Part shown: one piece after another, positions 23,301 through 26,300 of the stretch | Numbering within the stretch: position 1 is the stretch's first letter | How the letters are laid out: each line of letters opens with the position of its first letter | NCBI GenBank assembly: GCA_034440575.1 | Contig: JAOTOL010001344.1 | Location: forward strand, 656,996 to 720,995 | DNA: 64,000 bases | DNA from: Imbricaverruca yamaguchii | Taxonomy: Eukaryota; Arthropoda; Thecostraca; Neoverrucidae | Direction of reading: 5' to 3' | Notes under the pieces: model-generated | The model's input: only the letters and a program-made list of their open reading frames with translations | What the model was told of the DNA's origin: nothing | Database searches by the model: none | Position numbers and translations under genes: made by a program

Positions 23301-26300
23301 CGCCGGCCCCTCCGGACAGCTCTGTCTTGCCCCGGGGGTCTGACTGCCGCTCCTGGTGACTCTGGCGTGCTCCGGGTGTCGGGCGGCCCCCTCCCCGGGC
23401 AGCTCGGCCCTGTCGCGTGTGTACCGGACGGCGGCCGGCGGCTGATCCGCCCGCGCGTGCCTCGCAGTTCTACTCGGACGCCAACGAGGCCGAGTCGTGG
23501 CTGAAGGAGAAGCAGCCGCTGGTGGCGTCGGCCGACTGTGGCTCGGACGAGCCGGGCGCCGCCGCCCTGCTGGCCCGCCACAAGGACACCGTCGGCGAGA
23601 TCAACGCCTACCGGGACGACATCACGGCGCTGACCGCCCAGGCCGACCAGCTGCAGCGCTCCGGCATCACCTCGCTCAGTGTGAGTGCCGGCGGCGGGTC
23701 TTCACGTCGGTGCTGGTGGACTCGAGTGCCAGCCGCACCGGCGGACTCACTCGGGGTCCTGCTGAGTGTCGGCGGTGGTGAGTTCTGCCAGCGTCAGTGC
23801 TGATGACTCTGCTTAATGTCGGCACGTTTGAGCTTGCTCAGTGTCATTATCGATGGCAGTGCTGCTCAGTGTCCGTGTGAATGGCACTGCTTAGGGTCAG
23901 TTTTTGTGAACTCGCCCTGTGTGAGTTCTGGTGAACTCCTCAGTTCAATGCTGAAGTTGTGAGCATCGATGTACTCAGTATCAGTACATTGACAAGTATA
24001 GAATAACGTATCAAATAACCTGGTGCATTCAAAACGCGAGGCGTCACTTCAATTTGCGGCTTGGTGAAATATTTGAACCTGTAAAGAAATCACATCGAGG
24101 GAAACATGGAGTAAGATATGTTATTCCCATGCCAGTTCACTAGCTAGCGTATTTCCATCCAAGTTCAGCTTTCATTCGACAGCACGCATTTCCATCCCGG
24201 CCAATTTTCTGCTTATGTGTTCCCACCATATCCTCATGACCCTCGTACTATGCCAATCAGGGTGACAATTAAGGCACTTCTCAATAGATTTCGTCTCTTA
24301 AAACATATTTGCACTCCGGATTCATACTAGATAGAATGAGCTCCACATGTGCTCCGACACAAACATGCAGAAGGAACAAAAATACCACTAAAAAACTAAT
24401 ACAAGATTGAATAAAACATCCGCCAAATATGTTATTCTACTTACGATTACAAAATAAACTAGCCACTTTTCGTACCATCAAGCACACAGACAACACCCGA
24501 ACACACACCACACTACACCACATGGGCGCAAAATGACCTTAGTAGTCCACGCGCCCTTAAGCCCAAATAATCAATCACACTACACCACAATCAGCGGAAA
24601 TGCCGACGACAATGCGCCAAACCTCGCGCCTGCGCACTGAACAGTGGCCTCCGGTCGCTACGAATTCGGCCGATGCGTCTCCAGAAACCTGCTTTCGAGC
24701 CACCCTATAGTGGGAAAAACTGACTGTTTTAAGAGACGACTTCCGGAGTCCCGGAGGCCGCCGATCGAAATTTGCTTCGTTAGCATTTTCTGTTCTAAAA
24801 ACTGTCTTTCAACCAATCAATGTAAGGTATTTTTAAATGACGTCATAACCATTAGCAACTTTGAACACATGTTTAACAGTGTCATACTGCAAACACAAGA
24901 CCTTGACTGATCCTTTGCCTTCCGACTGTAGCGTGCGAGGTGTTGGTGTCCGGTCCGTATCGCGCAGGGAATTGGCTGCGTATGTGGGTAGGTGTGCGTT
25001 CTGAGGTGAGGGTGAAGTTTGAATTATTTGTGCTTGTTTTTCATTTGGCTAGCCTTGTACTGAGACCAACAGTGAAAGGAAAGCGCATTGCTCCTGTGAG
25101 TTACGAGAGACAAAGCTGAGCTGATCATCACAACTCCCTGTCTTGCGGTGCCGTCCATTGTTCACTTTGCTTCTATGCTTTGATGTGACCAAAAATTATG
25201 TGTATTACTTATGCATATTACGTAGGTACTGACTAGGTACATATGTTTTCCCGTCGGTTACCGGAAAATAGATTCCATGCATGAAAAATAATATGTCCAT
25301 GAAAATGTACTCCGGAAGAAGTCTGTTTGCACTCCGACTCCAAACCCGGAAAGTAAGTTTCCCACCCTGGTGCCAATTACCCGCAGCACTGTCCGTACAG
25401 CTACGTGCGCCTGCTACGGTTCCGACACCTGTGTCTGTCCGGGCTCTGGTCTGCTCTGACCCCTGCTGGCATGGCGTCTTTGGTGACCTCTCACGACCTG
25501 TGTCTGTGCGGGCTCTGGTCTGCTCTGACCCCTCCTGGCATGGCGTCTTTGGTGACCTCTCACGACCTGTGTCTGTGCGGGCTCTGGTCTGCTCTGACCC
25601 CTGCTGGCATGGCGTCGTTGGTGACCTCTCACGACCTGTGTCTGTGCGGGCTCTGGTCTGCTCTGACCCCTGCTGGCATGGCGTCGTTGGTGACCTCTCA
25701 CGTACCTGTGTCTGTGCGGGCTCTGGTCTGCTCTGACCCCTTTGCATGGCGTCTTTGGTGACCTCTCACGACCTGTGTCTGTGCGGGCTCTGGTCTGCTC
25801 TGACCCCTGCTGGCATGGCGTCGTTGGTGACCTCTCACGACCTGTGTCTGTGCGGGCTCTGGTCTGCTCTGACCCCTGCTGGCATGGCGTCTTTGGTGAC
25901 CTCTCACGACCTGTGTCTGTGCGGGCTCTGGTCTGCTCTGACCCCTGCTGGCATGGCGTCTTTGGTGACCTCTCACGACCTGTGTCTGTGCGGGCTCTGG
26001 TCTGCTCTGACCCCTGCTGGCATGGCGTCGTTGGTGACCTCACGACCTGTGTCTGCCCGTGCAGCTGTCTGGCGCGCCAGAGCTGGCCGAGGTGGAGGAG
26101 TGGACCCAGGAGACGCGGCTGGTGCCCAAGGAGACGTGGGAGGACGAGCCGGTCGAGCGCACAGAGTATCGCATCATCACCGAGGAGCGTAAAATACCGC
26201 AGGTCAAGGCTCTCTATCCCTTCCAGGGCCAGGACATGCAGATGGCCAAGGGAGAGGTGAGTGTGTAATGCTAAGTGGAGGATGGAGATATGAAAAGTGT

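Follow-up and report, generated by a model that had tools for sequence, protein, structure and literature searches.

Here we describe very short hairpin units dispersed in a 64,000-nt stretch (the window) of the barnacle Imbricaverruca yamaguchii (GenBank assembly GCA_034440575.1, contig JAOTOL010001344.1), in which at least 14 copies of a GGGCGC...GCGCCC hairpin with a repeat tail were found, mostly flanked by target-site duplications (TSDs) and starting with (A)TGGGCGC. The same module forms the 3′ end of several diverged families of long interspersed nuclear elements (LINEs) carrying reverse transcriptase (RT) and RNase H, where GTTA is followed directly by TGGGCGC, the rest of the hairpin and the tail. 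Judged from the sequence comparisons, each unit probably represents the recognition module from the 3′ terminus of a LINE of the stringent type, inserted alone by the LINE machinery via target-primed reverse transcription (TPRT).

Module copies in the window and in the genome

The window was searched at E<1e-6 with a profile built from 11 copies, and 14 places were obtained with 25.8–57.6 bits, 12 on the plus and 2 on the minus strand, three of them outside the training set of the profile; the top score in the controls (20 Markov-shuffled windows and the reversed window) was 11.3 bits. A covariance model built from 15 short copies added 4964–5022 on the minus strand (E=3.8e-6) and two tandem-array units at 5595 and 5667. 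An earlier note, made from the letters of the window alone, had listed 15 copies, and 14 of these were recovered at E<0.002; the one at 7005 is weak, being absent from the profile list and matching in its tail only (untrained, 16.1 bits, E=0.015). The copy listed at 4963 lies on the minus strand, and the minus-strand copies at 46460 and 22704 as well as the two array copies had been missed. The array units stand in a small repeat at 5434–5719, where module-like units TGGGCGCAAAATGACT... recur at a spacing of ~72 nt, apparently an old insertion amplified in tandem. Searches of viral contigs gave 0 matches and no relative, and 2 bacterial matches in a genome contig search were taken as chance.

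The copies and their parts are as follows.
24509–24522: 5′ TSD CACACTACACCACA of the main copy, matching 24576–24589 at 14/14 positions
24523–24575, plus: main copy, a module-only insertion of 53 nt with hairpin and AATC-type tail, 53.7 bits
24524–24556, plus: hairpin of the main copy, stem P1 GGGCGC/GCGCCC, stem P2 of 3–4 bp and a short loop; minimum free energy (MFE) −13.1, 4/200 shuffles as good
24576–24589: 3′ TSD of the main copy, perfect over 14 nt
4963–5025, minus: full-length diverged copy, TSD AAGGTNTTCAGAGG, 28.4 bits with model R2, outside its training set
13688–13746, plus: full-length diverged copy, TSD TTCTGAT
13790–13832, plus: copy without 5′ arm, TSD AGTCATATGTGAGG matching 14/14
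22646–22712, minus: copy with 8 extra 5′ nt GTGAGTTA, ending in GTTA like the LINEs, TSD TGGTCCAACAG, one of those missed before
23142–23200, plus: full-length copy, weak TSD (score 5), 56.6 bits
28207–28261, plus: full-length copy, TSD GAAAATAATGAA
37580–37637, plus: module-only copy of 58 nt with leading A, TSD CAATATGGTTAA
38013–38069, plus: full-length copy, TSD TAATGGCGAT
40367–40425, plus: full-length copy within a 21-nt minisatellite, no TSD assigned, 43.5 bits
42476–42530, plus: full-length copy, TSD CACCGTC
46409–46460, minus: full-length copy, TSD CTGGATGCCACTGA matching 14/14, likewise missed before
48408–48460, plus: copy without 5′ arm, TSD AAGCTTCAGAAC
50318–50380, plus: full-length copy with leading A, TSD CAGTGAACGAC/CAGGGAACGAC; MFE −20, 0/200 shuffles as good
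50796–50831, plus: copy truncated in the loop, adjoining the end of a spectrin exon match
58694–58740, plus: old full-length copy, no clear TSD, 14.8 bits, E=0.0014

At 50620–50831 the TSD of the 50796 copy carries GGGTGAG upstream and GGGCGAG downstream, so this insertion seems to have hit a 5′ splice site.

The TSD match score was at least 7 in 13 of 18 window copies, compared with 12 of 306 mispaired flanks, and at least 8 in 11 of the 18, compared with 4 of 306. In a cruder control, 480 of 3000 random window positions scored at least 8, a high rate that is probably due to the many tandem arrays of the window. TSD length is about 7–18 bp; ties in score were settled toward the hairpin, and the detection is biased to young copies. 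Eleven of the 15 copies listed earlier score at least 7, in agreement with the eleven flanked copies claimed for them. The claimed constant 5′ start was also borne out, with T at position 0 in 12 and A at −1 in 10 of the 13 full-length window copies, which have no upstream sequence in common at the boundary. Copies without the 5′ arm number three (13790, 48408 and 50796) and not two as had been counted.

In the assembly of 767,457,503 bases the exact hairpin pattern matched 3311+3201 = 6,512 times and the reversed pattern 0+0 times, so that the thousands of genomic copies foreseen were indeed present. A density sample of 195 kb non-N sequence (20 stretches from four large contigs, GC 52.2%) held 12 copies at E<1e-4, which corresponds to ~47,000 per genome (24,000–82,000), a rough estimate with LINE ends included. 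For the 20 perfect copies at the start of the strict-pattern match list, a TSD score of at least 8 was present beside the hairpin in 13, compared with 2 of 380 mispaired flanks, and these inserts measure 53–66 nt.

The position of the 5′ end was tallied over 53 rows, representing 52 distinct copies (L003/134 repeats window 23142). Copies without 5′ arm were left out by design (window 13790, 48408 and 50796; sample L019/1894, L019/4402, L015/8038, L026/3462, L026/3479 and L028/3872), and window 7005, 4409, 5595 and 5667 and the tail of a longer element (L025/3253) were also left out. Thirty-three copies have a TSD score of at least 8, and in 29 of them the T is preceded by 0, 1 or 2 extra nt (0, 1, 2, 6, 7 and 8 extra nt in 11, 13, 5, 1, 2 and 1 copies). 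Where just one base is added, it is A in 12 of 13 copies (p=6e-7 against 0.25), and A is the LINE's own −1 base. The TSD-bounded inserts span 52–68 nt, again the narrow range predicted by the earlier note. Over 12 copies the TSDs mismatch at 5 of 148 positions and the elements differ from their consensus at 112 of 530, so the element differences mostly predate insertion; such prior diversity is as expected with many LINE families as sources.

The module is composed of P1 (GGGCGC/GCGCCC), P2 of ~4 pairs (TGAC/GTCG), a linker (CTAAACCCAAATA) and a tail of short-unit repeats, and thereby has the conserved 3′ stem-loop followed by short repeats that characterizes stringent LINE 3′ modules. In 15 aligned copies 91.9% of the pair cells form, against 30–49% when slid, and one P2 pair is replaced from G-C to A-U in 3 of the 15. 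The covariation score was reached in 3/500 shuffles and the count of pairs with both partners changed (2) in 118/500, giving modest covariation support for the hairpin; RNAalifold predicted no structure on a 19-row alignment, and when nine copies were folded one by one, between 0 and 91 of 200 shuffles did as well. Evidence for a crossing helix between the internal-loop triplet and the 3′ side of the loop is weak, with 56/93 pairs in 31 loop types against 49.3 when shuffled (115/5000 shuffles as good) and no significance in the 18 loop types that begin with T or C.

The inverted GGGCGC...GCGCCC arms might also be read as terminal inverted repeats of a DNA transposon or miniature inverted-repeat transposable element. 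The arms end before the tail, the TSDs stand outside the tail and not at the arms, and neither inverted repeats at both ends nor a constant TSD length was found; the varying TSD length, a variable simple-repeat 3′ tail, 5′-truncated copies and RT-encoding parents all speak against such an element, which was rejected as having next to no probability.

Parent LINEs and the short copies

Among the 20 perfect copies, 7 have no TSD at the hairpin, and 6 of these 7 read GTTA before TGGGCGC. The DNA upstream of those six and of the sample copy L022 contains LINE coding sequence in 6 of the 7, giving six LINE loci which reach the hairpin (L022, L051, L052, L054, L055 and L056), L053 being the exception; the coding sequence ends 53, 53, 62, 107, about 122 and 439 nt upstream of the hairpin. 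In stop-free pieces Pfam recognizes RVT_1 plus RNase_H in L052 and L054 and RNase_H in L055, and L051, L056 and L022 are linked to these three by DNA or protein similarity. L051, L052 and L022 are one family (85–99%), and L054 and L055 share ~63% nucleotide identity. When these seven 3′ ends are aligned, L053 among them, the columns shared by all start at GTTATGGGCGC. RT together with RNase H in the parent reading frame would place these LINEs in the I superfamily. The earlier statement that nothing lies upstream of the module therefore holds for the short copies, and the same module ends LINEs that share the sequence from GTTA onward.

The window has a LINE of its own at 60800–63656 on the minus strand, which has a CTGT tail and matches RVT_1 and Exo_endo_phos_2; a protein on a JGI metagenome contig matches its own at 99% identity over 82% of the query. 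This LINE (60.8–63.7 kb) was rejected as the driver of the short copies, its end being AATAAAGTCTGTCTGTC.

GTTA precedes 1,407 of the 6,512 perfect hairpins (21.6%) and is absent from 5,105 (78%). In the set of 20, GTTA is missing in 12 copies, and 11 of them carry a TSD scoring at least 8 next to the hairpin; among the other 8, which do have GTTA, 6 show no TSD at that place, a further copy has 7 extra nt and the last has 2. Twenty further GTTA copies were compared, and 18 match a LINE far upstream (15 by tblastn to the end of the reading frame, 3 by DNA), in 2 the similarity is confined to the last ~40 nt, and a TSD (score of at least 7) within 30 nt occurs in 0 of 20. One type of LINE end, F1, in which 14 exact nt of its own untranslated region precede GTTA, occurs 49 times. 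About four fifths of the perfect hairpins thus probably begin at the hairpin foot, most of the others being longer LINE ends, and the copy lengths look bimodal rather than randomly truncated.

Ordinary 5′-truncated LINE copies, randomly cut and noticed only by their tails, would likewise consist of a TSD-flanked LINE 3′ end, as these units do, and truncated LINE ends have indeed been taken for short interspersed nuclear elements (SINEs), according to PMC2887409. The RTE elements of Lepidoptera described there resemble the present case in having 3′ ends only, flanking TSDs and simple-repeat tails; their copies keep 3′ coding sequence, whereas here one truncation point at the hairpin foot is preferred. 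The earlier note had named random 5′ ends, with most copies continuing upstream, as the pattern that such truncation would leave. Variable ends were not what we found: the next 4 LINE bases are missing upstream of 78% of the perfect hairpins, 29 of the 33 TSD-bounded ends lie within 0–2 nt of one base, and intermediate lengths are rare among GTTA copies (2/20). We regard random truncation as very unlikely.

Loops and tails were compared over the first 100 listed places (contigs C44–C233), of which 40% have GTTA, so that the set is not representative. For 44 of the 60 short copies, the loop recurs in at least one of the 40 long copies. Families differ in their proportion of short to long copies, with 2 short and 8 long for CCTAGATG against 36 and 12 for four other types (p=0.002), and where compared the tail tracks the loop in short and long copies alike (AACGCAG with GAAAGCCCAAATAACC, AACCATGG with CACACACA). 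The earlier note's proposal of a discrete element accordingly stands as far as discrete ultra-short insertions are concerned, but lone insertions of LINE 3′ modules are a better description of these than an independent element.

Mechanism and rival explanations

In the mechanism that we propose, the LINE protein would dock on the hairpin and start the cDNA at the tail, and the enzyme would copy the module and stop at the hairpin foot, so that most insertions would end there as abortive, 'strong-stop' TPRT products; alternatively, trimming of the LINE RNA down to the protected module could have taken place before copying. If the units are LINE modules, early termination by the enzyme carries, in our estimate, about half of the weight, trimming of the LINE RNA before copying comes next with a clearly smaller share, and a self-propagating short lineage takes what is left. 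A host intron transcript used as template would leave its old flank as extra letters, so on balance the extra letters favour a template made of LINE RNA.

Two zebrafish L2-clade LINEs require their own 3′ stem-loop and their proteins bind it, as reported in PMC4176376, and the module found alone here would supply what such a protein needs. The stringent LINEs described in that source (ZfL2-1 and ZfL2-2 of zebrafish, UnaL2 of eel) have, like those here, a LINE-specific stem-loop at the very 3′ end which is shared with SINE tails; they differ in belonging to the L2 clade, the present LINEs carrying an RNase H domain, and in that module-only insertions make up most perfect copies here. That the module is needed for, and bound by, the LINE protein is known for ZfL2-1 and ZfL2-2 and may by analogy apply here.

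A trimmed template is the closest competitor to enzyme termination. It supposes that degradation of LINE RNA proceeds from the 5′ side and halts at the hairpin, which the bound LINE protein or the fold of the RNA itself would protect, and that the ~54-nt RNA left over, starting with AUGGGCGC, is copied in full and inserted. Exonuclease-resistant viral RNAs are a parallel for protection by fold. The 5′ end defined nearly to a single nucleotide, with A as the extra base in 12 of 13, and the structured foot at the boundary agree with trimming, and since the diverged LINE families share only the module, the determinant of the boundary is probably within it. Two products which run 7–8 nt further and end in the LINE-like GTTA, and the copies starting inside the hairpin (13790, 48408 and 50796), do not fit; such occasional GTTA extensions and internal stops speak for termination by the enzyme. 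Taken over all explanations, a trimmed template is possible but less likely than not.

Several observations weigh against the interpretation of the units as LINE modules inserted alone through enzyme termination. The sharp 5′ end fits the end of a template at least as well as a fall-off of the enzyme. Extensions of 2 nt read TA, as in the LINE, in only 1 of 5 (AA, AG, TC and CA in the others), and of the four with 6–8 nt only 2 end in GTTA, the others being unlike the LINE. The loops of 16 of the 60 short copies are not among the 40 long copies listed. The main copy resembles a LINE end (L067) in its loop TTAGTAG and AATCAATC tail, and its subfamily (loop TTAGTAG, GTCCACG) has 817 first-look candidates in the genome; 36 of 40 scored candidates, the main copy included, are 98–100% identical, the 7 best further loci are all module-only, and no long copy with GTCCACG was seen, the nearest LINE, L067, having GTCGATG. 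Finally, the 14 strong window copies (13688–59421) are oriented 12:2 in sense to the spectrin gene of the window (p=0.013), or 10:2 counting only those between the first and last exon match (p~0.04), as 2 sense copies precede the first; this bias concerns one locus and is neither predicted nor explained by the LINE model.

These points bear on another explanation, in which some module-only units would be independent, self-propagating ultra-short retroposons, in effect head-less SINEs copied in trans with their own small RNA or host introns as template. It gains from the homogeneous GTCCACG subfamily without a long member seen, from 638 exact copies of one 34-nt hairpin (a type with LINE members too), and from the sense bias and the higher density of the window, with 14 copies in 64 kb against the genome sample (p=0.002), a comparison in which profiles and thresholds differed and the window had been chosen for its copies. 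The single extra 5′ letter is nevertheless the A of the LINE in 12 of 13, and in most of the copies compared the loop and tail follow those of LINE families. A promoter was not detected either: the box A and box B of RNA polymerase III (Pol III) matched at 6–8 of 11 positions in 4 copies (two free positions always counted), as in random 58-mers. A tRNA search of the module copies found none, and Rfam gave no family at gathering score (for one copy, weak matches with E 0.67 and 3.4). We therefore consider independent retroposons unlikely; equally doubtful is the variant in which some subfamilies, first of all GTCCACG, would be free-living ~53-nt retroposons without own promoter that use host transcripts as template.

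The absence of a tRNA, 7SL or 5S head, stated earlier, was confirmed, and an origin as a small-RNA-derived SINE was rejected, no Pol III promoter or small-RNA head having been detected. As described in PMC7245038, SINEs consist of head, body and LINE-derived tail; the units share with them the LINE-type tail, TSDs, a discrete 5′ end and thousands of copies, and differ in their length of ~53 nt and in lacking a head, a body and any detectable Pol III promoter. The source also names snoRTE / PlatSINE1 (PMC7245038). As in a SINE, the 3′ tail is shared with a partner LINE. snoRTE / PlatSINE1 is said to carry a LINE tail on an RNA without tRNA head, as here, together with a snoRNA-derived 5′ part, which is missing here. 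A separate intronic source for each copy was also considered, and 9 of 66 copy pairs fit one source over all columns and 41 of 66 with CpG columns masked; the idea was dropped because LINE families with the same modules were found. A literature search limited to open-licence papers, mostly at listing level, found no report of module-only LINE insertions.

Other elements of the window and wider meaning

The remaining features of the window are a host gene and a longer SINE-like element.
14085–59421, plus: host gene with spectrin-repeat exons, 27/27 matches on the plus strand
26470–26627, plus: first copy of a longer SINE-like element, whose head resembles a tRNA by eye only and which terminates in a hairpin plus tail related to the module but differing in P1 letters
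40044–40202, plus: second copy of the longer element
33502–33620, minus: third, diverged copy of the longer element, nhmmer E=1.2e-11

Pfam Spectrin was matched on three reading frames of the host gene, one of them just below the cut-off. The longer element (26470, 40044 and, on the minus strand, 33620) resembles the module in a related hairpin (TGAC...GTCGA) and a AATAACCAACC tail and differs in its P1 (CGACGC/GTGTCG against GGGCGC/GCGCCC) and in its length of ~155 nt with sequence upstream; the 26470 copy is 84% identical over 154 nt to 40044–40197. A P1-like stem folds in 2 of the 3 copies, but with 72, 8 and 61 of 200 shuffles as good the folds do not clearly surpass the shuffles. ARAGORN found no tRNA in the longer element, and Rfam gave nothing or, for the 26470 copy, one antisense Plastid-ycf2 match below gathering score. 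A model made from the short copies only finds two of the longer-element tails (E=0.0045 and 0.014), and by these scores a relation of the longer element to the module has moderate support. In the genome, L045 is a module-only copy with flanks GACGCTATATGACCTTGCGG...GCGTCGTAAAAGAACCC like the tail of the longer element, i.e. inserted into a related hairpin.

A second SINE-like family with a different tail lies at 43464–43572 (minus), 49401–49503 (minus) and 53895–54060 (plus), the 43-kb copy having a perfect box A (TGGCCGAGTGG) and a near-perfect box B (GGTTCGACTCT). Two further interspersed repeats of unassigned type (8606–8904/34491–34805 and 21924–22115/33234–33421) form pairs that are 68–69% identical, and many long minisatellite arrays, their units measuring 8–65 nt, occupy 2331–2790, 9014–9870, 11102–12200, 15579–17490, 30595–31220, 40240–41010, 47400–47750 and 59540–60750.

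No comprehensive barnacle repeat library exists according to the authors of the Pollicipes pollicipes genome (PMC8917513). The present units warn against taking every ultra-short 'SINE' at face value, as some can be LINE 3′ modules. Where repeat libraries exclude elements shorter than 80–100 nt, tens of thousands of insertions here could be missed, going by the rough genome estimate given above with its LINE ends. A free-living ~53-nt retroposon, if true, would to our knowledge be among the shortest eukaryotic mobile elements. In our judgement, how a stem-loop-bound RT escapes to copy kilobases is an open step of TPRT, and with 78% of the perfect modules ending before the next four LINE bases, in several families, this escape step may become countable in DNA.

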